Shown here: in pieces, positions 84 to 33,522 of the stretch | Layout: each line of letters begins with the position of its first letter | Numbering within the stretch: position 1 is the first letter of the stretch | Virus record (IMG/VR): IMGVR_UViG_3300005526_000016 | Coordinates: 1 to 39,546 of that record | Direction: 5' to 3' (one strand) | Origin: a virus | DNA: 39,546 nt | Notes under the pieces: model-generated | Databases searched by the model: none | What the model saw: only the letters and a program-made list of their open reading frames with translations | What the model was told of the DNA's origin: nothing | Program-made: the position numbers and the translations under genes

Positions 84-326
84 TCAGACGCCTTGTTGGA
101 TGAATGCACACTGCCCGTTAGGACCAATGGTGCAGACGTGGCAGAATTTATCCTGGCTGGGATAAACTACCGATCTGACAAAGTAATAATCGTGCCAGCG
201 CCATTTCCCGTCCGCTTGCTCAACAAGCTCCTCGCACGGAACCGGCTTGCAATGTTGCTCGGCGCAGCAGCTTTGCGGGTACCAGGAATGAATGACAATT
301 AAGAGAGATATGAAAAACGGTTTCAT
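84..326 (-). CDS. Small secreted Cys-rich protein
   Basis: The 80-residue product starts with a signal peptide (lysine, then a hydrophobic stretch to about residue 20, with possible cleavage near CCAEQ). The mature part carries several cysteines (CKPVPC, CHVC, C near the end), suggesting a disulphide-bonded periplasmic protein. Its ATG overlaps the stop of the preceding tail-spike gene as ATGA, and an endolysin-like gene follows. A role in lysis is inferred from position only; no spanin-like coiled coil is visible. The longer opposite-strand frame at 6-302 is taken as a shadow. Confidence 0.65.
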   Translation of the reverse strand: MKPFFISLLIVIHSWYPQSCCAEQHCKPVPCEELVEQADGKWRWHDYYFVRSVVYPSQDKFCHVCTIGPNGQCAFIQQGV

Positions 327-2446
327 GGCCCCGCCGCATCGGCGACCGGCTTGAGGATGGTTACCATCAGATTTTCGCCCGTTACGGTAAGATGAGTCCC
401 ATCGCTATAATAAGTTCCGTCGGCAGCGGCACCCGATCCAGGCGGGCCGAAATGAACGTTTGCGGCAAAATCTATGATCGCGGTGCCGTGTCCCCATGAT
501 GTTCTGACAATGTTGTTGAACGACAGCGCATTGTTAGTCCACGCCGGGTTCACAATGCCGGCATTACGATCAATAACCGTGCCGATGATGACCGAGAAAC
601 CAGCAGCTTGCAGCGGGTCAACGAACGATGATGCAACCGCCGCGGCTTCTGTCGGGCCGGTGACAGTGCTGAGGTCATTGGTACCGATGAGGACGGAAAG
701 AACGAAGTGGCGATTGGTCCGCCGGCTGGCCGGCGGTATTGAGGCGGTCCAGATCGGCAAATTAGTAGCAGCGATCGTTGCTATTCCTACGCCGCCAATC
801 GCTATGTTCTGGCCGAATACCGACTGCGAAGCCGTGGGCCCGTATTTAGCCGGATAGCCGTTGCTGATGCCGCTGGTGATCGAATCTCCATCGGCAAAGT
901 AGTAGTATGGATGCATTGTATATGTGAACAAGCTCGAAAAATGCACTTTCCAAATATCGAGCACATTGTATAACTGTGCGTTGCTTAAAGCACTCGGCCA
1001 GATCGCCAAAGCTGCTAGTTTGTCACCACTGTTTGCGCCGGTCCCGCCATCAAGAAAACCCACAAATAGATTCGCAATTGCTTGGGACAGTGCCGGATTG
1101 GCTGAGCTAGTGCGGCAACGAACGTCATCAAAAAATAGATCGACCGTGGTGGCATCATATCGTACCGTGATTGCATGCGCACCGATGCCAACGGCATGGT
1201 TCCAGAGCCCTGCTTGCGCGTCAATAAGAGGATCAGTAGCGGCAAAATTAAAGATAAACTTCTCGCCGGCCGCAACCGTCGAAGTGTAGAACACAAAGTC
1301 CAAAAAATGATTTAATTCCTCTAGGATGCTCCTAAGTGAGGCTCCGGTTGCAGTTCTGTTCACAAGTGCGGAAATCGTAAAGGAAGTAAGCGTCTGCGGC
1401 GTGAGAAATTGTAAAAATGCCAGTGTGCTGCCGGAATTGGCGGTAAAGTCCACGTATCCGCCGCTGGTTGTCGGCAGGTTGCTGACCGCTGACCCGCCCA
1501 AGTACATATGACCGGCCAACAGTTCGGGACCGAGATCGCTGCTTCCCTGGAACATCTCAAAATCGCAAACGGCAAGCACGGCGTTAGCGCCCGCATTATC
1601 GACTATAGCTATGCTGCCGGTAACCGGTGCGCCGGCTGTCCAGGTATAAGTAAATCTCTGCCATGCCGAAGTTGCGGTTTTTGCCGCGCTGCTGGTGCCA
1701 TCCGGGGCTTTGATTTTGAATGTTTGATCGGAACCTGTTGCTCTTTTTACGTTGACACCCAGCGTATAGGTACCTGCGGGCCAAGTAATGCCCGCGCCGC
1801 CTAAAATCGGATCTTCATATTGAAGCGCAAATGGACCAGTACAGGTTGCCGTACTTGCTTGGGTGAGACCATCAGGGCCGACGACATTATTATCGACAAC
1901 TACGACACTTATAGATCGCCAAAAACCGCCGACAGCAACAGAAAATACCCGTCTCGGCGCGCGCATGAGATTTTTGGGCACCGCGACGGCCGATAGCAAA
2001 TTAGGAATGACAGGATTGCCGCCGGTCGTGATGGCCTGATCGGCGTACCAAATGCCGAGCGCACCCGCCGGAAGCTGAATAACCGTCAGCGTAATCGGAA
2101 TTACAATCGGCGTTTGACTAAATGAATTATTTGTAAAGCTGATGCTGTCGGTATAAACGCCCGCTACCAAGGCATTGGTTGAAGTATTCGGCGTGAACGT
2201 AATTGCTGTCGGCGTCGTTGTTACCGAGCCGCCTGATGACGATGGCGTCAGCCATACCGGACAACCAACGCTATAACTAATGCTGCCGAATTGTGTACTT
2301 AAACTATAGACGAACGATGAAGGCGTAAACGGGCCGCCGGTTTGGCCACCCATCACAGCACTCGTCAACGGCGAAACAATCAGTTGCGCCCCAATGACCG
2401 GGGTAGGCAAAGGAGTGACGTTCTTAACTCGCAGCGCAAAGTCCAT
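323..2446 (-). CDS. Tail spike with SGNH/GDSL esterase domain
   Basis: This 707-residue protein is modular. The N-terminal quarter contains an Ig/BACON-like beta segment (about residues 20-125). The middle resembles a carbohydrate-binding module followed by a LamG-like beta-sandwich (about 320-500). The C-terminus is an SGNH hydrolase with all the family blocks: GDS at about 520-522 (nucleophile Ser), GTND at 588-591 and DGTH at 682-685 (Asp/His of the triad). SGNH enzymes deacylate polysaccharides, so this is probably a receptor- or capsule-modifying spike. I chose the ATG at 2446 because it forms TAATG with the upstream gene and has GGAG about 10 nt upstream; an in-frame start at 2467 has no ribosome-binding site. 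Confidence 0.8.
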   Translation of the reverse strand: MDFALRVKNVTPLPTPVIGAQLIVSPLTSAVMGGQTGGPFTPSSFVYSLSTQFGSISYSVGCPVWLTPSSSGGSVTTTPTAITFTPNTSTNALVAGVYTDSISFTNNSFSQTPIVIPITLTVIQLPAGALGIWYADQAITTGGNPVIPNLLSAVAVPKNLMRAPRRVFSVAVGGFWRSISVVVVDNNVVGPDGLTQASTATCTGPFALQYEDPILGGAGITWPAGTYTLGVNVKRATGSDQTFKIKAPDGTSSAAKTATSAWQRFTYTWTAGAPVTGSIAIVDNAGANAVLAVCDFEMFQGSSDLGPELLAGHMYLGGSAVSNLPTTSGGYVDFTANSGSTLAFLQFLTPQTLTSFTISALVNRTATGASLRSILEELNHFLDFVFYTSTVAAGEKFIFNFAATDPLIDAQAGLWNHAVGIGAHAITVRYDATTVDLFFDDVRCRTSSANPALSQAIANLFVGFLDGGTGANSGDKLAALAIWPSALSNAQLYNVLDIWKVHFSSLFTYTMHPYYYFADGDSITSGISNGYPAKYGPTASQSVFGQNIAIGGVGIATIAATNLPIWTASIPPASRRTNRHFVLSVLIGTNDLSTVTGPTEAAAVASSFVDPLQAAGFSVIIGTVIDRNAGIVNPAWTNNALSFNNIVRTSWGHGTAIIDFAANVHFGPPGSGAAADGTYYSDGTHLTVTGENLMVTILKPVADAAGP

Positions 2447-3120
2447 TAGAGCGACACTCCACCCCATAAAACTGGCAATCTGCCAATGAACAATTGCGTC
2501 GTATGAATACTGTCGGTCATGGTCATGCAGGCGCCATAGGTACCGCTGCGCAGAGTGCGAAAGGTTCTCTCTGGAATGTAGATTTGCAACGTGCCAGGTG
2601 AGGTTACCTTGATCTCGCCGTTAGAGAGCGATGCTTGCAGGATCGGTGCCTGCTCCGCCACTCCAAAGTCATACCAGGAAATATAGCCAAGCCCTGGTTG
2701 CCAATTCGGCGGCATCTTGCGAATTTCAAATTGATAGGTGAACCCGATCTGACAAACGAGCGCGCCATTTTGCTTATTATAACTCGTCACATAGCCGACC
2801 GCGGTATTTGAGGCAGTGGCAGCATCGGCAATCGTTATTGCCTGACCGGCAGTTATTGCAAGGCCGGGCGCCACGACAAGCGAAAGCGCAGAAAGCTCGC
2901 CTCCCTTCGGATAAACCGGAATGGTAATCGTCGTGCTCGATGTTGTTGCGATACTTCCGACGTTGACTAGCCATGCCGATGACGTGAAGTTTACGGAGCC
3001 GGCGACGACTGTTCCATCAAGCCCAATGAGCGTGAAGGTATCATCATCATAAACCTTGAAGGTCGCGATGAAATCTTCACGACTGCTGACCTGATCGAAA
3101 TACACAGGAGTTTTATACAT
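2446..3120 (-). CDS. Probable tail/baseplate structural protein
   Basis: The 224-residue product has no recognised domain. It is rich in beta-prone Thr, Ser, Val and Gly stretches and sits between the collar-like protein and the esterase spike, which suggests a virion part such as a spike adaptor. Its stop overlaps the next start as TAATG, so the two are probably translated as a pair. A GAGG core lies about 12 nt upstream of the ATG. Function is inferred from context only. Confidence 0.6.
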   Translation of the reverse strand: MYKTPVYFDQVSSREDFIATFKVYDDDTFTLIGLDGTVVAGSVNFTSSAWLVNVGSIATTSSTTITIPVYPKGGELSALSLVVAPGLAITAGQAITIADAATASNTAVGYVTSYNKQNGALVCQIGFTYQFEIRKMPPNWQPGLGYISWYDFGVAEQAPILQASLSNGEIKVTSPGTLQIYIPERTFRTLRSGTYGACMTMTDSIHTTQLFIGRLPVLWGGVSL

Positions 3121-7258: not shown

Positions 7259-7516
7259 TCAATCTCTCCTGATGCGCTTCATTTGCGCTTTGTACGGCCG
7301 TCGAAAACAATCAACCAAATCACTTATGAACTTTTCAGATGGCATTCTTCTGGCTTTTCCCTTGATAATTATGCCATGCCGCCATTTACCAAGTTGAAAC
7401 CCGACACCAATAAATTCCCCATTCCAGCACGATCGAGGAAAGCATTTCAGTCCTGGAAGCTTTCTCTGCGCAAGAGCGCAAATCTTGTTGGAAACAACAT
7501 GATTGACCACACGCAT
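7259..7516 (-). CDS. Small basic protein of unknown function
   Basis: The 85-residue product is Lys/Arg-rich, with a possible beta core (EFIGVGFQLGKWRHGIII) and a basic C-terminal helix. I recognise no family. The ATG at 7516 is chosen because AGGTGG lies about 7 nt upstream and overlaps the stop of the preceding gene; the longer frame to 7594 has no such signal. It sits inside the ejection-protein group. Its composition is less Ala/Gly-rich than its neighbours. Confidence 0.5.
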   Translation of the reverse strand: MRVVNHVVSNKICALAQRKLPGLKCFPRSCWNGEFIGVGFQLGKWRHGIIIKGKARRMPSEKFISDLVDCFRRPYKAQMKRIRRD

Positions 7517-7526
7517 GTTTATCCAC

Positions 7527-8270
7527 CTAAGCGGCAGCCGCAAAAATATTGTCGAACAGGCCGGAGGCCAGATTGCCGCCGATCGTCCCACCACCGGCGC
7601 CGCCGCCGCTCACGCCGAGCTTGGCGGTATTGCCGAGCAAACCCCACAGATTGTTGCCAGCCGTCAAGGGCGCGAGGTCGGCCGACGCCTGCGCATTGCC
7701 CATGCCAACATTGGTGCCATAATCCAGGCCGGCTCGCGCGGTGCCAAGCGTGCCGAGCTGGCCGGCTTCCTGACCAGCCAAGCCGCCGATCTGGCCTGCT
7801 GCATTTCCGCGCGCTCCAAGATAGGGCAAAAGGTTCTGCACGGCGTTCTGATAAGTTTGGCTCGCAAGCCCGCTGCCGTAGTCCGTGAGAGCTTTAAGTG
7901 TATTGCCGGATAGCCCGCCAGGCCCGGTGCCAAAGCCCTGTGCTGCGCTCTGGCGTAACGTATTCTGCAAGCCCTGATCGCGTGTGAATTGATATCCCGG
8001 CGTTTGCTCCAAGGTGGATTGCATGTCCGCCGGATTGCCGCTGAGGCCAAGCAGTTTTGCAAGCTGATCGGTGCCTTGCGTGGCGCCGCCATAGGTTGCC
8101 TGTAATGGCTGCAAACCGGCAGCATAGGTACCTGTGACATCGCCGCGGGCTTGACTGAGATCAGCGCCGCCTTGTGCTTGCGCTTGCCGCAAGGCTGCTT
8201 GTTGATCGCTAGACGCCTGCTGCTGCGCGCCGGTACCGAATGGAGCCAAAAGACTGTCAAATAATCCCAT
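7527..8270 (-). CDS. DNA transfer (ejection) protein
   Basis: This 247-residue Ala/Gly/Gln-rich protein matches the pattern of podoviral DNA-transfer proteins: an N-terminal Gln/Ala helical region (AAQQQASSDQQAALRQAQAQ) followed by the characteristic TPGYQFTRDQGLQNTLRQSA segment and SGNTLKALTDYGSG. Family members are packaged and ejected with the genome. Codon 1 at 8273 is GTG and codon 2 is ATG at 8270; the latter has AAAGG about 9 nt upstream and is preferred. The gene begins 11 nt after a remnant HNH gene. Confidence 0.75.
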   Translation of the reverse strand: MGLFDSLLAPFGTGAQQQASSDQQAALRQAQAQGGADLSQARGDVTGTYAAGLQPLQATYGGATQGTDQLAKLLGLSGNPADMQSTLEQTPGYQFTRDQGLQNTLRQSAAQGFGTGPGGLSGNTLKALTDYGSGLASQTYQNAVQNLLPYLGARGNAAGQIGGLAGQEAGQLGTLGTARAGLDYGTNVGMGNAQASADLAPLTAGNNLWGLLGNTAKLGVSGGGAGGGTIGGNLASGLFDNIFAAAA

Positions 8271-8712: not shown

Positions 8713-10427
8713 TAATTCTCTCGCAATTCGCTTGATTGCTTGGCACCGAAAAACCCCAAGTAGACCGGATCGGACATATCCCAGCGCCAGATAACACCAG
8801 CCGGCCCGGACAGTCCGGCATTGAGCACCTTGATACGGGTTTTCGATCTTGCCTGCTGACCAAGATTTCTGATCCACGGATTGCCGAACGTAATACCGTC
8901 ATCGCGTGAGCAGGAGATTGAAACTACCGGGTTCTGCATGTTGACCGGCGCGGTGATATCGGTTGCCGTGCCGCCGGAAATGTACGCATTGAGGAAAATC
9001 GAGTTTAGCAACTCGACATGCGTTGCATCCACGATATGCGACGTGAATGCACCATTTGCCTCGGTCGTGCCGTTCACATCGGCGACTAAAAGAGTATCGC
9101 CCTCAATCATGCCAGCCGTGTTATTGACCGTCAGCCGCACCACTCCGCCGGTTCCGGCAACGGCTCCCGTTACGGTCATGACGAGACTATTGGTCGCTCG
9201 GCCAACGCCAGTCACGAAGGAAAAATCCGCACGAGCAATCCGCATGCGATTTGGGAAATCCTCAACTGGTGCGCTTTCCATGCGGGCGAGAATTGCTATC
9301 CCGTTTTCGGTGTAATTTGTTTCATCTGTGAATAGCAGGTTTCCGCTCTGTATGTCGCCGGTAAGCCATTTGCCGAATCCAGGATGGCCGAAGATCGAAC
9401 GCACGCGGCCGAGCACAGAGGTCAATCCGTCGCGACTGGCGCGTTCGTTCCATTTGTTGGTTGCCGTGTTGAATTCCCAGGACCAGCGTGAGCACGACAA
9501 AACCCAAAACTTGCGGCCGGACGTGATATAGGCGCGCGCATCGAATGCCAAACCAGCCAGAAATGCCGATTGAATAAGCCGATCAAGGTCGGGCGGGCTG
9601 ATCTTGGTCGGCTGAAAACTCCCCGGCTGCAACTGCCAGACGCCATAATCCTGCGCCACCCACATGAGGATCGAGAAACCGTCCTCATAGCCGGCAATGG
9701 CATTTTCTTGCAACAAGCCATATTCAAGCACAACCAGCCGAGAATACGGAAAGCCAGGTGCCGGTTGCGCTGTATCCTGCCAAACCTCGGTCGATGACGA
9801 GCAGAAGATAAACAGCAAGCCGCCGAACGGAATAAGCCGCTGCAATATGTCCGATGACTTGGCCTGTACACTGATAAATGTCAGTGCGTTGATGACGATG
9901 GTGTTGATGCCGGTGGCGAACACACGACGATCTGCGATACCAAAGAACAGATAACCGTCCTGGTAGCAGATGGATTTCGGCTGAGGAAGGACACCACCGC
10001 TGGTGTAAGCAGTAACAGTGCCGGTATCGAGCTGATAAGCACCATTATCGAGGTCCACCGCGATGACATTGGGTGGCGAGGCATTGTTTCGTGCAATCTG
10101 CACCCCTTTAAGTCCGGCGAGGACACCGATGAGGGCACTGACCGTTCCCGCCGCATCTACGGTAACAACGTTCGGTGTAGCTGCGTCCTCAGCAAATACT
10201 TCATAGGCAAGGTTTACCACCAACAATCCGCCGCGATAGCCGTGCAGTGCTGTCGACGCATATAGCGTCAGCCCTGGCGAGCGATGCCAAGCAACCGGTG
10301 ACGGGCTTTTGTCACCAAGCGGCTCCGCATAGATGTTGATGATGCGACCCGCGCTTTCCTGCGTGACAGCACCGGGAAAAGACGACGTGGGCCATGGTAT
10401 CTCCACAGCTTTTGAACCTAGTGGCAT
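8712..10427 (-). CDS. P22 gp10-like tail hub / packaged DNA stabilization protein
   Basis: The 571-residue protein matches the P22 gp10 family. It has an N-terminal SKAVEIPWPTSSFPG...RIINIYAEPL segment, a central beta-propeller-like region (YQDGYLFFGIADRRVFATG, EVWQDT), and the family's closing sequence (WRWDMSDPVYLGFFGAKQSS). In P22, gp10 is the hub that plugs the packaged head and anchors the spikes. The ATG at 10427 forms TGATG with the HNH-AP2 gene, which lies between this gene and the adaptor genes and probably inserted there. Confidence 0.85.
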   Translation of the reverse strand: MPLGSKAVEIPWPTSSFPGAVTQESAGRIINIYAEPLGDKSPSPVAWHRSPGLTLYASTALHGYRGGLLVVNLAYEVFAEDAATPNVVTVDAAGTVSALIGVLAGLKGVQIARNNASPPNVIAVDLDNGAYQLDTGTVTAYTSGGVLPQPKSICYQDGYLFFGIADRRVFATGINTIVINALTFISVQAKSSDILQRLIPFGGLLFIFCSSSTEVWQDTAQPAPGFPYSRLVVLEYGLLQENAIAGYEDGFSILMWVAQDYGVWQLQPGSFQPTKISPPDLDRLIQSAFLAGLAFDARAYITSGRKFWVLSCSRWSWEFNTATNKWNERASRDGLTSVLGRVRSIFGHPGFGKWLTGDIQSGNLLFTDETNYTENGIAILARMESAPVEDFPNRMRIARADFSFVTGVGRATNSLVMTVTGAVAGTGGVVRLTVNNTAGMIEGDTLLVADVNGTTEANGAFTSHIVDATHVELLNSIFLNAYISGGTATDITAPVNMQNPVVSISCSRDDGITFGNPWIRNLGQQARSKTRIKVLNAGLSGPAGVIWRWDMSDPVYLGFFGAKQSSELREN

Positions 10428-10939
10428 CAAACTCTCGCAAACTCGCCATAGAATTTTTGAGCAGCATTGGAATAAGCATTATGTGCTTCTTCTAATCTGT
10501 CGTAATATCCTAAGACGATCTCCGTCCTATTTTTATTTATTCTTGCGCGCCATTTATAGACATTCCCGTAACGAAATCGCGTAACACCCTTGTAGCCAGA
10601 AGTGTTATTTGATTGCTTACGTGTGTTTGCTCTATTTTGCCCAGAAGTAGCCTGACGCAAATTACTAATTCTATTGTCCAAGCGATCTAAATTCTTGTGA
10701 TCCAGTTCCCCATCCGGCCAAGTTCCGTATACGTACAGCCAAGCCAATCGATGCGCTCGATACAATCTCTTGTCGATATTTAAGTTCACGTATCCCGTTG
10801 TTGCGCTAATAGTTCCTGCCGGTTTATCGGCATATCGAGAATTCCAGCACGGCCTTACATCAGACCGCATAATGCGCGTGAAAATCCCTGTTTCGGGATC
10901 ATAATTAAATCGCGCCTTTAATGTTTCCAAAGTCAGCAT
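10427..10939 (-). CDS. HNH homing endonuclease with AP2 DNA-binding domain
   Basis: The protein has 170 residues. Its N-terminal module contains the HNH core: HR at 63-64, DH at 80-81, then Asn at 83, 89 and 93 (SNLRQATSGQNRANTRK). An AP2/ERF-like DNA-binding domain follows (SGYKGVTRFR...YKWRARI...GYYDRLEEAHNAYSNAA, about 113-168). This is the usual layout of free-standing phage homing nucleases. It sits between virion genes with only a weak ribosome-binding site and overlaps the hub gene as TGATG. A collapsed relative lies 2 kb away. Confidence 0.9.
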   Translation of the reverse strand: MLTLETLKARFNYDPETGIFTRIMRSDVRPCWNSRYADKPAGTISATTGYVNLNIDKRLYRAHRLAWLYVYGTWPDGELDHKNLDRLDNRISNLRQATSGQNRANTRKQSNNTSGYKGVTRFRYGNVYKWRARINKNRTEIVLGYYDRLEEAHNAYSNAAQKFYGEFARV

Positions 10940-12584: not shown

Positions 12585-13136
12585 TTACATGTCGTCGTCA
12601 GGCACGTACTCGAAGATCACCGTCACCTGACCAACGGTCGGCGTGCCGGCCGATGAATACACCTTGTAGAAGATGTCAAACCCGCCGGAGCTGCCGGTCG
12701 GCGTTGCCGGTGATGTAACCGCCAAACCAAGACCGACTGCCGTGGTGATGGGCTGATATCCGGCAGTCGTAAGCACGCAAGACGAAGTGGTGCCGGTGGC
12801 GCCATTGAGCCAATCGCCAACACCTGCCGCGGTGCCCGCCGAGGTCGAGGCGAGGCCGAGGAAGTTGTTGCCGGCACCGTTCTGCCAGATGTTCGTCACA
12901 TAGCAGTAGATACGCGAGACAAAGGCTTTGGCGGGGACGGCGCCGATTTTGGCGGCGCCGCCTACAACGGTTGTTCCCACGTCGTTGAAGTTGATGGTCC
13001 AACGATAGTGGGTCGTGGTTTGCCACGGCACCCGGCGAGGCGAGATGCTTGCGGGAACCGTGAGCCCGTATGCGAGCGTTGACAGTCCGACAACGGCCGC
13101 GGCTGCGATCAGCAGCTTGCGAGGTAATCTCAACAT
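12585..13136 (-). CDS. Exported or decoration-like protein beside the capsid gene
   Basis: From the ATG at 13136 the product has 183 residues. It begins with a basic-hydrophobic signal-like segment (MLRLPRKLLIAAAAVVGLST, then LAYG) followed by a Thr/Gly/Ala-rich beta domain. The start has GAAAGGA about 9 nt upstream. A start at 13160 would overlap the capsid stop as ATGA but has no ribosome-binding site. Its position after the major capsid gene suggests a decoration or head-fibre protein, yet a signal peptide would send it out of the cytoplasm; the conflict is unresolved. Confidence 0.6.
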   Translation of the reverse strand: MLRLPRKLLIAAAAVVGLSTLAYGLTVPASISPRRVPWQTTTHYRWTINFNDVGTTVVGGAAKIGAVPAKAFVSRIYCYVTNIWQNGAGNNFLGLASTSAGTAAGVGDWLNGATGTTSSCVLTTAGYQPITTAVGLGLAVTSPATPTGSSGGFDIFYKVYSSAGTPTVGQVTVIFEYVPDDDM

Positions 13137-13156
13137 GGTTGCGATCCTTTCCGTTA

Positions 13157-14311
13157 TCATGTGTCAGACGGGGAATAGGTAAACATCGTGAAGATGCCCC
13201 ATTCCTTGTACTTGCCGCTCAGATCGAGCTTGGCGATCTTCTTGAGCCCGTAGGCCATTTGCACACCGACGCCCCGATAGAATTGATAGTCATCCTCTTT
13301 CAGGAAGGTCGGCATGGGCATACGGCCCCACGCCCAGGCCATTGCGCTCTGTCCGCACAGGAACGCGGGCGCGGTCTGGATACCCGCAGTGCCGGCCGTG
13401 GTGTAGAAGATCGGCAGGCGAACGGTGAGTTCGGGAATCTCACGAATGATGACGCCCGAATAGAGCAGATCGCCATCTTGGAACAGCGGATTCTTTTCCA
13501 ACCCATCGCCCTCACGAGGCCGGGCGTTGGTATTGGCGCTGATGATGGTCGCATCGGCCTGTAGGTCGCGGAACTGATACGAGTTGACGAACAGGACGAA
13601 ATACTCACGGCCATTTTTCAGCTTGTATGGACGAATGCGCGGGTTGGCGAGCTTGGCAAGGCGCTTGGCCTTGAGGATGCTCGTTGCCGACATGCCCATG
13701 GCGGTGGTGATATTCGCCAATGAGCTGGCGAAGTTACCGGCCACGAGGTTGGACTGCGCGCCGCCGAACATGATGCGATCGGCGTTGTCCGTCGTCCAGG
13801 TATTGCGCTGCGCTGCTGTCGCCGCATCCAATAATGCTCCATTAACGCGCTGGCCGTTGGTGGAGCCAAGGCCGGCAGGAGCAGTGGACGCGAGCGGGAT
13901 GGTGTAGAACGTATCGCAGATTTCATCGCGTTGGAGTTCCTTGCCCCAATCCTCAAGCAGAGGCCGTGCTTCGCCAAACAGGTCGATTGACGACTTTTGC
14001 TCTTCGGAGGCCGCGATCTTGACTGCGTTACGAGCCCAATCGATCCACGCACGGTCACCATAGTTGTCGATGTTTTCTTCATTTCCAACCAGGGTGCCGG
14101 TTGCGACCGGCTGGTTTTTCAGGCGGGCAATGAGCGGAATGTTGATCTGCTCGCCGCCTTTCTTGAGGTCGTTAATGACCCGGATGATAGCTGTCGCTTC
14201 CGAGCCGATATACGGCGAGAAGAGATTTTGGCGGATATATTCCCGCGTGATCTCCTTTCGAAAGACGATTAGTTTATTATTAGCTTGGATGGTTGAGCCG
14301 GATACCGCCAT
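13157..14311 (-). CDS. Major capsid protein, N4 gp56 family
   Basis: The 384-residue protein has the hallmarks of the N4-gp56/DUF4043 capsid family: an N-terminal arm (NNKLIVFRKEITREYIRQNLFSPYIG), the GEQINIPLIARLKNQPV...GTLVGNEE segment, the helix around WARNAVKIAASEEQKSSIDLFGEARPLL, and a C-terminal KYKEWGIFTMFTY. It folds as an HK97-type shell subunit. The ATG has AAAGGAG 8 nt upstream, the strongest site in the virion genes, as expected for the most abundant protein. The scaffold gene lies directly upstream. Confidence 0.88.
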   Translation of the reverse strand: MAVSGSTIQANNKLIVFRKEITREYIRQNLFSPYIGSEATAIIRVINDLKKGGEQINIPLIARLKNQPVATGTLVGNEENIDNYGDRAWIDWARNAVKIAASEEQKSSIDLFGEARPLLEDWGKELQRDEICDTFYTIPLASTAPAGLGSTNGQRVNGALLDAATAAQRNTWTTDNADRIMFGGAQSNLVAGNFASSLANITTAMGMSATSILKAKRLAKLANPRIRPYKLKNGREYFVLFVNSYQFRDLQADATIISANTNARPREGDGLEKNPLFQDGDLLYSGVIIREIPELTVRLPIFYTTAGTAGIQTAPAFLCGQSAMAWAWGRMPMPTFLKEDDYQFYRGVGVQMAYGLKKIAKLDLSGKYKEWGIFTMFTYSPSDT

Positions 14312-14375: not shown

Positions 14376-15356
14376 TTATCGTGTTGCAAAATCGAACACC
14401 GATCGCTCGCTCGGATCGTAAAGCTCTGGATCGCCGACTTGATGCGACGAGCCTGATTGCGAGTTGAGCGATGGCGGCATTCGACGCGAATTACTCTGAA
14501 ACTCTCTGGCACCGTTTTGACGGGCCGACCCGCGTGCGCGCTCGACGGCAGCGGCTAGAAAGTCTGGATCGTTCAGACGTTCTTCCAGCTTTTTGTCTAG
14601 CCAGGCATTAGGATCGGTGCCGACTTCCTTGAGAGTCGATTGCTGGGCATGCCAGGACATGAGAGCGCGACCGGGATTGGGCGCGTTCCATATCCGTGTG
14701 ACCGAAGGGCTGTTGCCGAACTGCTGGCGCTCGGTATTGCCGAGTGTTTGCAGTTCACGATAGGCCGCCTGAAATTTCTCGCCATGGGTTTCGGCAGCGT
14801 CTTGCAACGATGCCTCGACGTGGCGGAATTGGGCGGCTTGGTTAGCCTGATCGATCACATGCCGCCGGAAGCCTTCCGGGTCGGCAAACATGTCTGGCGG
14901 CTCGACCTGAGTCGGCTGTTGCGATTGCTGTTGTTGTGCTGGACGCTGAGCAATACCGGCCTTGAAAGCCTCGAATTCGGCCCTCAGGGCTTGGAGCTGC
15001 GTTTCCGCTGCATTAGCGCGCTCAGTCTGTTCGCGGACTCGACCAGACGGAACCAATCGCGGCTCTTGCTCGGCGGGCTCAAAGCGTCCGCGTTCATCAC
15101 GCGGTTGCTCTTCAACCTCGTCGGGCTTTGCCGCAATTTCTTCCGCCTCTTCTGGTTCCGCTTCGTCATCGGCTGCATCCTCGTCTGGCTCGTCTATTTG
15201 CTCGCCTTCGAGGCCGTCGCCCATTTCCTCAAGCGACCTGTCGCCGTCGTTGTCCAGAGGATCGGTGCCATTGGCTTCGGAAAAGATTTCCTGTTCCGTT
15301 TCCGCAATGGCGTTGGCCAATCCCAAATCCTCAGCAGTTACCGTCTGCGTTGCCAC
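14376..15356 (-). CDS. Capsid scaffolding protein
   Basis: This protein of 326 residues is very acidic in its first third (runs of Glu/Asp around 45-90), has a Gln-rich helical middle (about 110-150) and a basic C-terminus. That charge pattern and its place just upstream of the major capsid gene are typical of scaffolding proteins, which line the procapsid and leave before packaging. The start is GTG with AAGGAG 9 nt upstream. Scaffold sequences vary widely, so the call rests on composition and context. A 355-residue frame on the other strand is treated as a shadow. Confidence 0.75.
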   Translation of the reverse strand: MATQTVTAEDLGLANAIAETEQEIFSEANGTDPLDNDGDRSLEEMGDGLEGEQIDEPDEDAADDEAEPEEAEEIAAKPDEVEEQPRDERGRFEPAEQEPRLVPSGRVREQTERANAAETQLQALRAEFEAFKAGIAQRPAQQQQSQQPTQVEPPDMFADPEGFRRHVIDQANQAAQFRHVEASLQDAAETHGEKFQAAYRELQTLGNTERQQFGNSPSVTRIWNAPNPGRALMSWHAQQSTLKEVGTDPNAWLDKKLEERLNDPDFLAAAVERARGSARQNGAREFQSNSRRMPPSLNSQSGSSHQVGDPELYDPSERSVFDFATR

Positions 15357-15440: not shown

Positions 15441-15743
15441 TCAGCGGTGAACGAGCTTCATTTGATCCAAGTGCCATTTCAGAATATCGGAACGCGGGTT
15501 GGTCTTGAGCGCATTCTCGACTACTGCAATGCACTGGTCCAAAATCCTTTCATCGCGGAACCGCATGCAGAAATATGCTGGCCCCATGCGTATCTCGTAG
15601 TTGAACGGCCAGGCTCGAGCCGCATTATCGAAGTGGTGCAGGATCGTGCGAAAGCCGATCCGCTTGCTGTTGTACGGGACCGAAAATTCCTGTTCTGCGT
15701 AGCATGAAAGGGAGGCGTACAGGCACGCTGCCGCGAGCAGCAT
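15441..15743 (-). CDS. Small secreted helical (TPR-like) protein overlapping the ligase gene
   Basis: The 100-residue product starts with a signal peptide (MLLAAACLYASLSCYAEQ) and continues with helices resembling a tetratricopeptide pair (AARAWPFNYEIRMGPAYFCM, ERILDQCIAVVENALKTNPR). A similar arrangement ends many O-antigen ligases as a periplasmic C-terminal domain; here it would be a separate protein. Its ATG lies 119 nt before the end of the O-antigen ligase-like gene, in another frame. The longer frame to 15941 has no convincing start. A role alongside the ligase is inferred. Confidence 0.55.
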   Translation of the reverse strand: MLLAAACLYASLSCYAEQEFSVPYNSKRIGFRTILHHFDNAARAWPFNYEIRMGPAYFCMRFRDERILDQCIAVVENALKTNPRSDILKWHLDQMKLVHR

Positions 15744-16770
15744 GACCCGCCATGACAGCAAATAGAAATGCCGTCGCCGGAAGGTGAAGCGGGAAGCCAG
15801 CCAATCCGATCGCCAGAAACGCGATGATCGCAAGCCGTTCCGTTTCATTAGCATATCGTAAAAGCTCGATGACGAGCCATGCCGCGCAAACGGCACCGAT
15901 GCCGAGTTCATAGGACAATTCAAGAGCATCGTTGTGCGCATGATCCGGTCGTGACAGGTTCACATCAAACGTGGCGAACTGTGGAAACGTAACCCAATAG
16001 GAGCCAATGCCGTGACCGAACAGCGTCAGGCCCGATAGCGTATCGGTCCAGATATGCAGCCGATCCGAAATCCCCGCTGTGCTGCGGTTGGCAAGCATAA
16101 AGGCCAGAACAACGCCCACTATGCCCGCCGTGGCCAGTGCAAAGGCGCCTAGGCGCGACCGTGGTGCGAGGTAGCCACAAGCCGCCGCCAATAGGCCCAA
16201 TATTGCGCCTCGCGATCCGGCGAGTACGAGAGTTGGCCACACCCCAAGAACGAGCCACCACAGACGGGACATTGCAAGAGCGACAACGACAACCGCGGCA
16301 GATTCTGCGGCAAAGTTGGGGTTGAAGAACAATCCGACGTGCGGGAGTGCAACACCGCCAAACTCCGGGTTGATACCGATGCCTTGCGTTTCCACGCCGT
16401 ACGCAACACGCTCGACGATCATTATGACGCTGTTGACGGTCATCCCGGCGCCGAAGCCGATATAGGCCGATAGGAGGCTGCTGACAGATCGGCCGACAAC
16501 GAACAGCAGCGCCAGGATGCCGAGCTTCATCAACTCGTCTGCCGCCTCAACGAACACCGGCGACCACGCAACCGACAATGCACAATACGCCACAAACGCA
16601 ACGCCGAGAGCGTCAGCCCTGGTAATGGAGCGCGGCGGTGCCGTCTTGGTCCCACAGATCAGCACCGCCGCACCTACGGCCATGATAGCCCAACGTGGCG
16701 TAATAGCCGCACCTGACCACCATGGCACGTATGCTATAGATACCAGAAACGCGACAACACCAAGCGGCAT
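15625..16770 (-). CDS. O-antigen ligase / polymerase-like membrane protein
   Basis: This 381-residue protein has about ten membrane segments and the Wzy_C-type signature: GLFFNPNFAAESAAV (146-160), AGSRGAILGLLAAACGY (184-200, with the conserved Arg), RLHIWTDTL then GHGIGSYW in the large periplasmic loop, and DHAHNDALELSYELG (276-290, conserved His). Family members join O-antigen or other glycans to lipid carriers. In a phage it could change host surface polysaccharide and so block further adsorption. Unusually it lies within the virion operon, joined by TAATG to a secreted protein and overlapping a second secreted protein. Confidence 0.8.
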   Translation of the reverse strand: MPLGVVAFLVSIAYVPWWSGAAITPRWAIMAVGAAVLICGTKTAPPRSITRADALGVAFVAYCALSVAWSPVFVEAADELMKLGILALLFVVGRSVSSLLSAYIGFGAGMTVNSVIMIVERVAYGVETQGIGINPEFGGVALPHVGLFFNPNFAAESAAVVVVALAMSRLWWLVLGVWPTLVLAGSRGAILGLLAAACGYLAPRSRLGAFALATAGIVGVVLAFMLANRSTAGISDRLHIWTDTLSGLTLFGHGIGSYWVTFPQFATFDVNLSRPDHAHNDALELSYELGIGAVCAAWLVIELLRYANETERLAIIAFLAIGLAGFPLHLPATAFLFAVMAGHAARGSVPVRLPFMLRRTGIFGPVQQQADRLSHDPAPLR

Positions 16771-17174
16771 TAATGCAAGCTGAAATTGATCGTCACGCCA
16801 GCTGCGGCATTGGTTGCATCGTTATCGGCAATGGCGCCGGTGAGGCAGAAGCCAAAGCCGTTATTGAAGTTCAAGCCACCGGGCGGAAAATCCGCCACAA
16901 CGCCGCCTGCGCTCGCTGCCACGAATGGAATTGGAATGCGCCGCACCGGTATCAGACCCGCGGTTGGCGTCACATTGGTATCATATAGCTTGATATAGTA
17001 GATGGCCGCGGTCGTATTGACATATAGCCCACCCATGTACTGTACGTTGCCGCGTTCAACCAACGTGCAGTTAGTACTTACCGCGCTGAGAAAGCTCACC
17101 GGCGCCGGAATGCCTTGCGGCCATGCCATTGCAGGCATCAGGCAGAATACAAGAGCGAGCAGCAATCGTTTCAT
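16770..17174 (-). CDS. Phage virion-associated family protein with signal peptide
   Basis: A 134-residue protein begins with a signal peptide (MKRLLLALVFCLMPAMAWPQ). The rest fits a small beta protein family common in phage structural regions: GLYVNTTAAIYYIKLYD...TPTAGLIPVRRIPIPF...GGLNFNNGFGFCLTGAIADNDAT. In that family the YxKLY and IPIP motifs are typical, but many members lack a signal peptide. It is coupled to the O-antigen ligase-like gene by TAATG. A surface or decoration role is possible. Confidence 0.65.
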   Translation of the reverse strand: MKRLLLALVFCLMPAMAWPQGIPAPVSFLSAVSTNCTLVERGNVQYMGGLYVNTTAAIYYIKLYDTNVTPTAGLIPVRRIPIPFVAASAGGVVADFPPGGLNFNNGFGFCLTGAIADNDATNAAAGVTINFSLH

Positions 17175-17185
17175 TTCCTTATCTC

Positions 17186-17698
17186 CTAATGCATCAGCAG
17201 CAGGATTATGGCCTCTTCCTCGTCGTCCTCTTCGATCTTCTGATACTTAACGACGGCATCGGCTAGCTTTTGTTCTTCAGCGGCCAATGCAAGCAGCGTG
17301 CGAGCCGCCTCGGTACCGCTAATTGCCGGACGTGTGTAAACCTCTTTCTTGACCTGTCGCGCCAGCTTCCTGGTGGCGCGTATGAGTTCGAGCAGTTCGG
17401 CTTGATCGTGCTTGCGCTTTTTCTTGCGCGCTATTCCAAGAAAGCGCTGAAATGCCCGAAAATACTTGCCCGGACGGAACGCTCCGGTGCCTGATACAAA
17501 CCCCGCGCCACCGAGATCGGTAATCGGCGGAGGAGGCGGGGGAGGCGGCGGCGGTGGAGTTGGCGGACACGGTTGCACCCAGCCCGGCACCTGCTGCACA
17601 AAGTTCATTTGTGCAAAGCAGCCGATCAATCCGGCGCTGGTCGTGCCCCAACTGACCGCCCAGCTTGAGCCCCAACTTGAGCCCCATGATGCCGGCAC
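17186..17698 (-). CDS. WGSSW/poly-Pro protein of unknown function
   Basis: The 170-residue product has three visible parts: a Trp/Gly/Ser repeat (SWGSSWGSSWAVSWGTT), a run of about 12 prolines near residues 46-58, and a charged helical C-terminal half with a basic patch (RKKKRKHDQAE) and an acidic end (EEDDEEE). Trp-Gly-Ser repeats also occur in small proteins of other phage structural operons. It lies between a fibre gene and a secreted protein. No function can be assigned. Confidence 0.5.
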   Translation of the reverse strand: MPASWGSSWGSSWAVSWGTTSAGLIGCFAQMNFVQQVPGWVQPCPPTPPPPPPPPPPPITDLGGAGFVSGTGAFRPGKYFRAFQRFLGIARKKKRKHDQAELLELIRATRKLARQVKKEVYTRPAISGTEAARTLLALAAEEQKLADAVVKYQKIEEDDEEEAIILLLMH

Positions 17699-22567: not shown

Positions 22568-24712
22568 TCAAGCAACCTCTTCCATCAGCCAAGAACCGTC
22601 TTTCTGCTTGCTGGCCTTCTTAGATGAGCCGCCAGGATGGTTATGAATGGTGATATGCGGCGTTGAGCTGCCCTTGTCCTTGCCGGATTTCTTGGCTTCC
22701 TTTGCCTCTTCTGTCTTGCTGTCCTGATCGCGCATCTTAACATGCCGTTCCGCGGCGCGGTCGTCACGATCACGCTCCTTGTCGGCATGCTGCGCTTGCA
22801 GCTCGTTCATTTTCATTTCATGCTCTTGCTGCTTGAACTGCATTTCCATCTGCAATTCCTGCACGCGAGCCGACGCCTGGAATTGTGCAAGCTGCTGCTT
22901 TTGCTGGTTGGCAACCGCATCCTGTTGCGCGTTGAATTTCTCGGCCTCGGCGGCCATGTTGGCCTTCTGGATTTCGGCCTGCGCCTTTTGCATTTCGGCC
23001 TGCGCCTTGATTTGCTCGGCCTGCACCTTGGGATCGGGCTTTTGCTGCTGCGCCGCTTGGCTCATGAGATTACGCAATCGCTGCTTGGTGCTTTCCGGCG
23101 CCGGCATCAGCTCAATCTTGATCGCAGGCGGAATATTCGGATCGTCCTTCAACAACTGATAAGCGTCCTGCATGATGTTGACGGCATCCGGCCCTTCATC
23201 GAGGATAATGTCCACATCGAGCGCGCCGACATCGTTGATAATCTGCGGCCGGCCAAAATTAGGCGATTGCGGATTGCGATCTATGCCGACGCCGTTTAAC
23301 TGAATGAACTGCTGCACGTTCTGATCGTCGGTTATGCGCAGCCATCGCTCGCTAGTCCAGAATTGCTGGACGGTGTTCCAGATAAATCGGTAGCAGCGCA
23401 TTTTCCAGGTGCGATGGTAGAGCAAAAACTTAGATAGCTCGGCCAATCCGGCTCGTTGCATAAGGTCGATTGCAACTCCGCTATGTTCTGTGGGGTCGCC
23501 AGCCGCCAGCAATGCCGGATTGACATTGGCAAAACTGTCGATTTCATTCTTCGCCTCGTTCAAAAAGTCCAGTTGGTTTTTAAGGTCAACGGCCGACAGT
23601 TCATCCGGCTTGATCTTGTCGGAATAACCCGGATTGATCTCCAATATCCCGTCCGGCCTTGCCCATTCCGTCCTGGTACGCTCCACATCATCAACCGCGC
23701 CCTTTTCCATGATGATGCGGCGGCTGTTGCTTATGTGGAGGCCCTTGCTGCGCCGTTGGTTGATTTCATCCTGAGGGCCCTTGAGGTTTCGCACAAACCC
23801 ATATCGATCGCCATCGTGGTCAACAGCAGCAGACCAAGCAATGAAACGCGAAACTGATCGCTTGTGGTTGTCAAGGAAGGGAGACTTCCCGCGCGCAAGT
23901 ACAAGGTTTGCGACATAAAAGCACCAAAACCAGTCGTCTTTGTAGCGATACCAATGCTCCACCATTCTGACTCGGCGTTCATTGGTGTATATCCACTTGT
24001 ATTCCTGATCGCTATGCGTCGTCAGGTCAAATCCGGAGTCCATTGAGTCTCGGATTGCCTGCTCCTGGTCGGGGAACAGCTCGATTGCAGCCTCGATATC
24101 AAGCCATTTAGCAATTCCGTGGTATCGAGCATCTGAAAAATCAGCGCGTCGGGAACGCGGATCGTAAAACCAATCTTCTCCGAAGAAGTAATCTGCTCTA
24201 ATGTCTGGATCGCCGTGATCGCCCTCTGACAGCTTGAATTCAAGTCCTCCAATTCCTTCAATAGCGCATCGCTCGGTAGAATTGTGCTCAAGGGTTTTCC
24301 AATCTATGCTGTCGAGGACGAACCGAATTGCTTGAGTAGCGACGTCAGCCCCGGCGGCATTGCGAGGATTACGCGGAAAGGCTTTTGGATCAGCCCGAAG
24401 CTTTTCAACAAGTCCAACGATTCCATCAATCTTTCGGTTGATTCGATTGTAAGTAACGATAGGTTGCCGTCGCTTTTTGAGCATACGGATTTCTTCGGCG
24501 GTCCAATGGGCGCCATGATAGTAATGTCGTCCAACGCGATGCTCCTCGATCTCAAGTATCTTGGCCTTGATGTAGTCGATGTACTGCTGCTTGAGCCGCG
24601 AGATAGGCAGGTAGCCTTCCTCGTCCGGTCCCCAATCGCCCTCGGATGGCTGGTTGGTGACCTGTTTGCCGACCGTGCCGTCGCGGCCGATATAGCGTTC
24701 AAGGTTAGGCAT
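22568..24712 (-). CDS. P22-type portal protein
   Basis: The 714-residue protein matches large P22-like portals: RPIVTYNRINRKIDGIVGLVEKLRADPKAFPRNP, then ERCAIEGIGGLEFKLSEG, DWFYDPRSRRADFSDARY, and the crown region RWLRITDD...VDIILDEGPDAVNIMQDAYQ. The last 150 residues form a Gln/Ala/Lys coiled coil, the barrel seen in this group. Portals are dodecameric gates for DNA packaging at one vertex. The gene follows terminase at a distance of about 2 kb, with small membrane genes in between. Confidence 0.9.
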   Translation of the reverse strand: MPNLERYIGRDGTVGKQVTNQPSEGDWGPDEEGYLPISRLKQQYIDYIKAKILEIEEHRVGRHYYHGAHWTAEEIRMLKKRRQPIVTYNRINRKIDGIVGLVEKLRADPKAFPRNPRNAAGADVATQAIRFVLDSIDWKTLEHNSTERCAIEGIGGLEFKLSEGDHGDPDIRADYFFGEDWFYDPRSRRADFSDARYHGIAKWLDIEAAIELFPDQEQAIRDSMDSGFDLTTHSDQEYKWIYTNERRVRMVEHWYRYKDDWFWCFYVANLVLARGKSPFLDNHKRSVSRFIAWSAAVDHDGDRYGFVRNLKGPQDEINQRRSKGLHISNSRRIIMEKGAVDDVERTRTEWARPDGILEINPGYSDKIKPDELSAVDLKNQLDFLNEAKNEIDSFANVNPALLAAGDPTEHSGVAIDLMQRAGLAELSKFLLYHRTWKMRCYRFIWNTVQQFWTSERWLRITDDQNVQQFIQLNGVGIDRNPQSPNFGRPQIINDVGALDVDIILDEGPDAVNIMQDAYQLLKDDPNIPPAIKIELMPAPESTKQRLRNLMSQAAQQQKPDPKVQAEQIKAQAEMQKAQAEIQKANMAAEAEKFNAQQDAVANQQKQQLAQFQASARVQELQMEMQFKQQEHEMKMNELQAQHADKERDRDDRAAERHVKMRDQDSKTEEAKEAKKSGKDKGSSTPHITIHNHPGGSSKKASKQKDGSWLMEEVA

Positions 24713-30753: not shown

Positions 30754-31153
30754 GGAAGTACTCCTGTTCGCTCAAAATTGCAAGTTCACGGAAGCTCTTG
30801 AGAATTTTCCGCAAACGTCGCTGGTCCCTTGCCGTGTCCCGAAATACAAATTCCCCGTTGCGCTCACGCTCCTGTAATTTTTCAATTTCACACGCCGGAA
30901 CTGGAATAGGTTCTTGCTCGTGCGGTAATATTTCCTGCACGCCGCGAATATTGTGGACAACAGCCAGTTCCTCCGGTGGAATGCACACAAACAAGTAGCG
31001 GGCGAGCAGTGGGCTTGTCCGGGTCACCACCCGCCCGCTAATTTGCCGCTTGCGTGATAGCAGCGGCAAATAGCATTGGAAATTATGTGCGTTCAGGCCA
31101 GCCATGGCTTTGAATTCGCTGGCAATCGCCGTGTAGAGGCAAAACCAGGTCAT
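30743..31153 (-). CDS. NusG-like (NGN domain) transcription factor
   Basis: The 136-residue protein matches the NusG N-terminal domain: MTWFCLYTAIASEFKAMAGL, then NFQCYLPLLSRKRQISGR, and SPLLARYLFVCIPPEELAVV followed by HNIRGVQEIL. NGN domains bind the RNA polymerase clamp and promote readthrough. No KOW domain follows; the C-terminus is a charged helix (RDQRRLRKILKSFRELA). Its place near the head of the leftward operon suggests it modifies polymerase to pass downstream terminators such as that at 12.5 kb. It starts ATGA after the methyltransferase. Confidence 0.8.
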   Translation of the reverse strand: MTWFCLYTAIASEFKAMAGLNAHNFQCYLPLLSRKRQISGRVVTRTSPLLARYLFVCIPPEELAVVHNIRGVQEILPHEQEPIPVPACEIEKLQERERNGEFVFRDTARDQRRLRKILKSFRELAILSEQEYFHVN

Positions 31154-33522
31154 GCCGTTGGTTCCTGTGAGAAATCAAATGGGCGCTGCCACATGGCATC
31201 CCATTCGGGTTTTGATGGTGCAGGCGAGCTAAACAGCGGTGCATCGCTGTAAATGCGCTTCTCGGCCATATCGGCATATTGAGGATTGAGTTCGATCAGG
31301 ATGGCATTGCGGCCGAGGCGGTCGGCAACGAGGCCAGTGGTGCCCGCGCCTCCAAATGGATCAAGGACAAGCCCATCCTTCGGGCAACCGGCCAGTATGC
31401 AAGGCTCAATGAGCTTAGGAGGGAAGGTTGCAAAGTGATCTATTGACATTCTCTCGCAAGTACATTTATTATTCTTGGATGAAAGTTTGTTTGCGTTGCG
31501 GTGTGGCTTTTGAGCCGAAAGATGATCGACCAAATCGGCCCGCCCGTTATTGTTCTCGGCGTTGTGGCCAGCCAAATCAAAAAACTCTGGTAATTCTAAC
31601 TTGTCGCCAATGCTCTCGCCAATTTGAGCGGAAGCGGTACATGCAGGACTGGTCGCAGGAGCGGGGGCCGTTTTGTGGTTTTCGCTGTTATGCGGCTTGG
31701 CAATCTCAACACACGCGGGGCGCGGCAAATCCATCGCATAAGCCGCAGGCTTGGATAACGCTTGCTTGTCATCGCTGTGGCAAGAAAATCCATCGACGGT
31801 TATTGGACCATCAACGGGGCGCGTCTGCAACCGGGCGAGCCTTTTGCTCTCGATGCTGTTTTGAAGATCATGCGCGGGAGACGTTTCCTCGCATGTCTTA
31901 TAATTGGTCATCGAAGGTATGGCATCGGGCAAAGCGAAAGGCACTGAAGCGAGATCAATACCGCTGCCAAGATTGTGGGCGGGTTGATGATTTAACGGTT
32001 CACCATTTAAAGCCGTTTGCGGAATTTCACGGCGATCACGCTGCCCATGAATTGGACAATCTTCTGACCGTTTGTAGGGGATGCCATCGGCGCCGACATA
32101 ATCAGCTAAGAGATGCGATCCGTTAAATGGTGCAGTGGCTATTTCCCAGACAGTGCGGCGGTTGCGGCCGGCAATCTCACCTGCTGCGTTAAGTTTTGGT
32201 TTGCGCTCCGTGACCGATTTTCCCCAATTATCAGACTTAACCTTGCCAAGGGCGTCATTCCCTTGTGGCCGATGCAAGCAACCAAATGTCGTATATGTTT
32301 TTTCCTCTAGGGGCTCCCTAATGGCTTCGCTGTCATAATAATATTTCTGGCAATCAGACCAGCGCCCGAACTTAGGTTCTGGCACGTCAGTCAAATCAGG
32401 ACTGCCAAAATGATTACACTGCTTGTTCCTCGCCCAAAGCGACAGTAGTTGCTCGTTTTCAGCCGGTGCTCGCTGTTTGCGGGATAGCATTTTCCCACCG
32501 CGATAATAGACTAGATCATCTACATAAATAGCAATGCGCGCCTGTCTCTGTTTGACAATCAGATACGGATAAATACGGTGGAGAAAATCGCGAGCAATAT
32601 TGTTTCCAAGTTGCCAATAGAACATTGGCGCGTTTTTCCCCGGTCTAGTAGCAATATTCCCGTGTCCAATGATTTCTTGGAATCTATAAATTAATTCTTT
32701 GCTAGTCCCACCAAAAGTAACCTGCGGCCCAAACGCATCGGCCCCGCCATCATTTTGTTTTACTCGCTTAACAACAATACATCCTTCTGTATCAATGCAA
32801 AGGGCGAGCCATCGCGCGTCCTGATCTGAAATATGGCCAAAGCGCCCAGGCTGCGGACCACTCCATTTAGCCTTAGCAAACATGAAAAGCTGCTCATGCC
32901 CCTTCGTGCATCTATCAGTAACTGACTCAGGCATCGGATTCGACTTCGCCCATATGATCTCTTGACGCAGTACCCATCCATCCGCCTGCAACGCGAAGGC
33001 AAGCCGCCAGGGGATGCCGATTAAATCTTTAGGTTTTAGTCCGGCAACATAACCAACCCCGTTTTTATTGCTGACGCCGCCATTCTTATCTTCATTGCCA
33101 GGCCGCCATCCGGGCAGATTATGACCGGCAAAAGAGTCGCCCATATTAATCCAGCAAGTCCCATCCTTGCGCAGCACACGCTTCACCTCCCGAAACACCG
33201 CCACCATCATCTCGATGTAGTCGGCAAAGGACGGCTCCAGGCCGAGCTGGCTGTCAATGCGACGGGCGCCGCATTTGCCGCATATCTCCTTAAATACCTT
33301 CTCCGACATGGGCATGGAGCCTTTGCGCCCTCCTGGCGTCTCTTGACCTGGTGGGTATGCAAATTGTCGATGATCGCACCCCACATCGCCGCCCTCCCAT
33401 TTCGCCGTGCCGTAGTCCCTTAATCCCCAATAAGGCGGACTCGTCACACAGCAATGCACGCTCTCGTCCGGCAAGGTCTTGAGCACATCCCGACAATCGC
33501 CGCGTAATATCTGCACTGTCAT
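31150..33522 (-). CDS. DNA methyltransferase (N4/N6 type) with two insertions
   Basis: The 790-residue protein has the beta-class order of motifs: catalytic TSPPYWGLRDYG (27-38) near the N-terminus and the AdoMet motif DPFGGAGTTGLVADRLGRNA (721-740) near the C-terminus, with RRTVWEIATAPF and HFATFPPKLIEPC between. It should methylate exocyclic N of cytosine or adenine. Residues about 218-395 are a LAGLIDADG-type insertion (ARWLALCIDTEGCIVV). Residues about 466-695 have low resemblance to methyltransferases, and 466-681 lie antisense to a complete HNH gene. A typical enzyme of this kind has about 350-450 residues. Whether this one is active is unclear. Confidence 0.85.
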   Translation of the reverse strand: MTVQILRGDCRDVLKTLPDESVHCCVTSPPYWGLRDYGTAKWEGGDVGCDHRQFAYPPGQETPGGRKGSMPMSEKVFKEICGKCGARRIDSQLGLEPSFADYIEMMVAVFREVKRVLRKDGTCWINMGDSFAGHNLPGWRPGNEDKNGGVSNKNGVGYVAGLKPKDLIGIPWRLAFALQADGWVLRQEIIWAKSNPMPESVTDRCTKGHEQLFMFAKAKWSGPQPGRFGHISDQDARWLALCIDTEGCIVVKRVKQNDGGADAFGPQVTFGGTSKELIYRFQEIIGHGNIATRPGKNAPMFYWQLGNNIARDFLHRIYPYLIVKQRQARIAIYVDDLVYYRGGKMLSRKQRAPAENEQLLSLWARNKQCNHFGSPDLTDVPEPKFGRWSDCQKYYYDSEAIREPLEEKTYTTFGCLHRPQGNDALGKVKSDNWGKSVTERKPKLNAAGEIAGRNRRTVWEIATAPFNGSHLLADYVGADGIPYKRSEDCPIHGQRDRREIPQTALNGEPLNHQPAHNLGSGIDLASVPFALPDAIPSMTNYKTCEETSPAHDLQNSIESKRLARLQTRPVDGPITVDGFSCHSDDKQALSKPAAYAMDLPRPACVEIAKPHNSENHKTAPAPATSPACTASAQIGESIGDKLELPEFFDLAGHNAENNNGRADLVDHLSAQKPHRNANKLSSKNNKCTCERMSIDHFATFPPKLIEPCILAGCPKDGLVLDPFGGAGTTGLVADRLGRNAILIELNPQYADMAEKRIYSDAPLFSSPAPSKPEWDAMWQRPFDFSQEPTA
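31443..31472 (+). promoter_or_regulatory. Promoter of the nested HNH gene
   Basis: TTGACA (31443-31448), an 18-nt spacer and TATTAT (31467-31472) form a near-consensus sigma-70 promoter. The expected start of transcription, about 7 nt after the -10 box, falls on the A of the ATG at 31479, so the mRNA may be leaderless. Confidence 0.65.
31479..32126 (+). CDS. HNH endonuclease nested antisense in the methyltransferase gene
   Basis: The 215-residue protein has three treble-clef-like zinc ribbons (CxxC at 4/7 with C25/C29; 42/45 with 66/70; 97/100 with 123/126). The HNH core follows: C163-x2-C166, HH at 175-176, Asn 194, C199-x2-C202-H203 and His 207 (DDLTVHHLKPF...DNLLTVCRGCH). It is probably a homing endonuclease. 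A near-consensus promoter lies just upstream and would give a leaderless message from this ATG. An alternative TTG at 31428 has AGGAGG 5 nt upstream and would add 17 residues. Confidence 0.85.
   Translation: MKVCLRCGVAFEPKDDRPNRPARYCSRRCGQPNQKTLVILTCRQCSRQFERKRYMQDWSQERGPFCGFRCYAAWQSQHTRGAANPSHKPQAWITLACHRCGKKIHRRLLDHQRGASATGRAFCSRCCFEDHARETFPRMSYNWSSKVWHRAKRKALKRDQYRCQDCGRVDDLTVHHLKPFAEFHGDHAAHELDNLLTVCRGCHRRRHNQLRDAIR
32338..32871 (-). other. LAGLIDADG-type insertion inside the methyltransferase
   Basis: About 178 codons (residues 218-395) interrupt the methyltransferase between GHEQLFMFAKAKW and KYYYDSEAIREP, which are normally near neighbours. The segment contains one LAGLIDADG-like motif (WLALCIDTEGCI) and a conserved helix (ARDFLHRIYPYLIVKQRQAR). 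I see no intein splice blocks (no Cys/Ser start or HN-Cys end at the edges). The boundaries are approximate. Confidence 0.65.

Follow-up and report, generated by a model that had tools for sequence, protein, structure and literature searches.

The virion block of a phage contig holds a gene, wzy, for a WaaL/Wzy-superfamily membrane protein and, over its 3' end in the +1 frame, a second and very likely real gene, hel. The pair is read, with a probability of about 0.5, as a two-gene transferase of lipid-linked glycans that would act on host surface polysaccharide late in infection. Phage-encoded Wzy is already known, e.g. from D3. New are the phage clade of WaaL-fold proteins in virion blocks, the overlapping hel and the apparently secreted protein that often ends at the wzy start. 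To our knowledge, the phage O-antigen enzymes described so far serve lysogens. Finding a separate phage clade of WaaL-fold enzymes among capsid genes suggests that glycans are rewritten during lytic growth; how such enzymes are controlled could be studied well on their conserved, overprinted partner. The recurrence of the pair suggests that these viruses may rework the host sugar coat late in infection.

The window, i.e. the whole stretch analysed, is a virus contig of 39.5 kb (IMGVR_UViG_3300005526_000016, positions 1 to 39,546). End repeats were looked for in this contig and not found. The capsid protein is only 24–34% identical to those of the closest named phages, which are thus too distant to confirm Bradyrhizobium as the host. 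The features of the block are, from its upstream end:

22568..24712, minus strand: portal protein (phrog_156, 2.8e-89), upstream end of the block.
17186..17698, minus strand: proline-rich protein of 170 aa, upstream of wzy in the same block, without a family in Pfam or phrog searches.
16770..17174, minus strand: sec, 134 aa, apparent Sec signal peptide, stop overlapping the wzy start.
15625..16770, minus strand: wzy (waaL-like), 381 aa, putative membrane glycosyltransferase with the WaaL fold; R187, R237 and H279 are candidate catalytic residues.
15441..15941, minus strand: hel frame, in +1 across the 3' end of wzy, conserved from about 15760 onwards.
14376..15356, minus strand: scaffold-like acidic protein, directly downstream, named from its position beside the capsid gene and its conservation in relatives.
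13157..14311, minus strand: major capsid protein (Pfam Phage_capsid_3, 1.9e-41; phrog_334, 1.7e-70).

An earlier note on this DNA had described the frame at 15625-16770 (minus strand) as an O-antigen ligase/polymerase-like protein inside the virion operon. The frame is present at these positions. It lies between the portal and the scaffold/major capsid protein on the same strand as the rest of the virion block; placement inside the virion block is supported in diverged phages too. Coupling to the upstream secreted protein, also claimed, is real in the sequence: the sec stop and the wzy start form TAATG, with base 16770 common to both. The secreted helical protein said to follow wzy does not follow it; the frame at 15441-15941 overlaps the wzy 3' end in +1. 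Judged by position only, wzy is expected to be expressed late. Scans for promoters and terminators gave no more than chance.

The wzy product is a multi-span membrane protein of 381 aa with the motifs SRG (R187), RLHIW (R237), GHGIGSY (G252/G254/G256) and HAHND (H279); SRG, HAHND and GHGIGSY had been recognised earlier as a Wzy_C signature, correctly. All 12 phage homologues keep R187, the three glycines and H279, and 11 of them keep R237. The conservation of the HAHND loop and of the glycine motif is partly due to selection, because the search patterns were placed on them, and members with an altered loop would be missed; the two arginine positions lie outside the patterns. R187, R237 and H279 align with R215, R288 and H338 of E. 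coli WaaL, the residues essential in WaaL/PglL (PMC3643930). Pfam Wzy_C (PF04932) is matched by 12 of 12 phage members, at best with E 1.1e-11. The source protein itself scores 23.3 bits (E 5.9e-5), below the curated cut-off of 31.7; its close homologues L005 (41.2 bits) and L006 (33.1 bits) score above it. PHROGs and NCBIfam are without a family for the product.

The profile of 12 phage homologues, run against the whole PDB, finds WaaL alone (7tpg/7tpj, E 3e-8). The AlphaFold2 model of the wzy product (pLDDT 82, pTM 0.81) matches WaaL in Foldseek (E 4.9e-5) and superposes on it over 314 residues (VIA Z 21.0, rmsd 4.0); the next structural matches are the SEDS proteins FtsW and RodA (Z 9–11). 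Membership of the WaaL/Wzy superfamily is supported. Fold, Arg/Arg/His set and HAHND loop are shared with WaaL. Unlike WaaL, to which it is 17% identical, the phage protein is about 30 residues shorter and is encoded in a virion block with an overlapping TPR-like partner.

Fourteen phage homologues, with identity down to about 28%, form the family: the source protein, L005, L006 and 11 more from profile-guided scans (L085–L093, L137, L140). In the tree all 14 stand on one side of a branch (support 97/99), apart from the sampled bacterial Wzy_C proteins. Profile scores are 160–476 bits for phage members, jackknife and held-out scores included, and at most 67 for bacterial proteins. Readable flanks of the homologues are blocks with terminase, portal, head adaptor, structural, tail or endolysin genes. 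In L089 a PhyH dioxygenase-like gene (7400-7990; Pfam 1.3e-7) lies directly upstream of wzy. The bacterial sample comprised about 780 genomes and one pattern scan of a species-level genome collection; two bacterial class samples overlapped almost completely. A bacterial origin of the close members was sought in the roughly 780 genomes, with a best match of 60 bits, and the pattern scan of the collection gave distant relatives only. The frame L144 is bacterial, 698 aa. A tblastn search of named phages (50,697 records) and of plasmids returned no wzy match; since none of the named phage records matches, the wzy-hel system appears undescribed.

The wzy-hel pair recurs in at least 13 diverged phages. 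Among about 50 related loci with both portal and scaffold, wzy is found only in L005 and L006, whose capsid proteins are 86–87% identical to that of the source phage. Present in 2 of 50 close-relative records, wzy is therefore dispensable. Other relatives fill its slot differently, which makes it an accessory gene.

In 13 of 13 evaluable phages (source, L005, L006, L085, L086, L087, L089–L093, L137, L140), hel lies in +1 across the 3' end of wzy, at the homologous place; the contig of L088 breaks off at this point. What is conserved is a transmembrane (TM) helix and then helices with a motif like A-x-x-x-FPL-x4-R. Under synonymous recoding of wzy, the TM helix in +1 is more hydrophobic than wzy alone gives (p<0.03 in 9 of 11). 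The helix is thus under selection, and within the overlap hel can very likely be taken as a genuine gene. The model of hel has pLDDT 87; its best Foldseek matches are TPR proteins, with probability 1.0 but E 0.05. Pfam TPR matches are weak, TPR_16 reaching 4.4e-5 in one member and all being below cut-off. Hel is thus modelled as a TM-anchored protein with TPR-like helices. A profile of hel gave chance-level matches only against the fetched bacterial loci.

For the expression of hel, internal initiation is favoured over frameshifting by the internal ribosome-binding sites. Start candidates in the source phage are ATG 15743, ATG 15848 and ATG 15854 (minus strand), the first being the best, with a weak ribosome-binding site. 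A convincing start is absent in the source phage, L005, L086 and L140. GGAG(G) followed by TTG 53 bases before the reference codon occurs in L089, L090, L091 and L137. Ribosome-binding sites with a start upstream of the hel TM helix exceed the recoding null (Fisher p ~3e-6, a test whose independence is broken by shared ancestry). A conserved ATG was rejected as the hel start, being present in four members only, and no start codon is common to all hel members in the aligned junctions. A programmed +1 (or -2) ribosomal frameshift giving a Wzy-hel fusion would also fit the lack of a common start and the fact that 13 phages keep both the frame offset and its position; this alternative, which could be combined with any function, is considered unlikely. 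The aligned wzy/hel junctions are without a conserved slippery sequence. The hel TM helix is encoded over the last wzy TM helix; a frameshift would merge the two into one and the fusion would lose a TM helix, leaving the domain on the other side of the membrane, and two proteins are therefore favoured.

The bacterial proteins L095 and L096 bear on the same question. In each, one continuous chain (632/669 aa) runs from a Wzy_C domain through a further TM helix into a helical region, the order of the phage pair, which speaks for a fusion; their tail is only weakly assigned to TPR (E 0.19). Since some bacterial proteins join these three parts, the phage pair may correspond to such a single-chain Wzy_C protein in two pieces.

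Under the preferred reading, the transfer of lipid-linked glycans, Wzy would take an undecaprenyl-linked glycan at the periplasmic side of the inner membrane. R187 and R237 would hold the pyrophosphate, with H279 as the candidate catalytic residue. Hel, probably translated from its own start inside wzy, is predicted to cross the membrane once, with its N-terminus inside and its TPR-like domain in the periplasm. It may serve as a partner of the enzyme, binding it or guiding its substrate. The pair, presumably expressed with the capsid genes, would act late in infection on a polysaccharide of the host surface, altering its length, its linkage or its ligation. The altered surface could reduce re-adsorption of progeny to the dying cell or its debris, or block superinfection. 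The superfamily acts most often on host surface polysaccharide. This commonest role, and the action of D3 Wzy-beta, a phage Wzy enzyme that changes O antigen (PMC4815439), make host surface polysaccharide the most likely substrate. Surface remodelling, release from debris and superinfection block, as proposed in the earlier note, are reasonable as hypotheses. It counts against the preferred reading that a late polymerase or ligase has little time to change the whole cell surface, that wzy is rare among close relatives and that the source protein falls below the Pfam cut-off.

Protein glycosylation is the main rival, and an unlikely one: as a protein O-oligosaccharyltransferase, Wzy-hel would glycosylate proteins from a lipid-linked glycan of the host, the upstream secreted protein being the likeliest target. 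The Wzy_C core and the three essential residues are common to WaaL, Wzy and PglL, and PglL genes mostly adjoin their target genes (PMC3643930). Like PglL genes, the phage gene often stands next to genes of secreted proteins. In eight phages (source, L086, L087, L088, L090, L091, L137, L140), the gene that ends at or close to the start of wzy encodes a product with an apparent signal peptide, as assessed by eye and with a simple hydrophobicity rule. PglL genes and their targets are arranged in a similar way, which makes this the main alternative. PglL and PilO glycosylate pilins encoded next door. Unlike PglL, the phage members are without a PglL_A match: PglL_A (PF15864; searched at E 0.01) and Wzy_C_2 are matched by 0 of 12. 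In L005, L006 and L089, the gene before wzy encodes something other than a secreted protein; where secreted proteins do precede wzy, they are not visibly alike, except that one similar to sec is found there in L088; and relatives of the secreted proteins also occur in phages without wzy. A bolder combination, a dedicated two-component machine so far seen in phages alone, with an overprinted partner, either placing host glycans onto phage secreted proteins or re-laying the host coat in lytic growth, is offered tentatively and is improbable.

Very improbable is a lysogenic conversion gene of the D3 type that lies near late genes by chance. D3 and VarioGold do carry Wzy_C-type proteins linked to lysogeny (D3 Wzy-beta; VG_p25), of similar length to the phage protein studied here and with essential Arg and His, and a repressor-like gene is present in the source phage. 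In D3, wzy-beta is antisense to the late genes, near attP, in a seroconversion unit that also has iap and oac genes, is without a +1 partner and has no significant match to the profile of the phage family; in VarioGold, compared by description, the Wzy_C gene is in a cluster opposite to the late genes. The wzy of the source phage is within the virion block on the same strand, overlapping sec at TAATG, and not alone outside the late operon. The contrast with lysogenic O-antigen genes drawn in the earlier note thus holds for D3. Tyrosine integrase was unmatched in 11 of 12 records and matched once, weakly, in the L089 record; these records may be fragments.

Least probable of all is an inhibitor or decoy, a protein that would block O-antigen assembly without catalysing transfer, by binding either the Wzy/WaaL machinery of the host or the lipid-linked substrate of that machinery. 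The short late window of action would suit it, as would the inhibitor of host polymerase (iap) that D3 also encodes. Against it, even very diverged members keep the essential residues, which is what one would expect if the enzyme is active.

Further features of the source phage are as follows. A 714-aa protein with an SGNH/GDSL hydrolase domain, rare in relatives and possibly a glycan deacetylase, is encoded at the end of the tail block (326-2467, minus strand). A link between it and wzy was dropped: in 43 records it occurs only in the source and in one wzy-free relative. The 790-aa DNA methyltransferase frame at 31150-33522 (minus strand) consists of two parts flanking an HNH endonuclease-like stretch (residues about 233–356), which suggests an inserted mobile element or intein. 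A free-standing HNH endonuclease is encoded among tail/connector genes (10427-10939, minus strand). Small proteins with apparent Sec signal peptides (12585-13160, 16770-17174) are frequent in the head blocks of many related loci, and occur there in phages with and without wzy.
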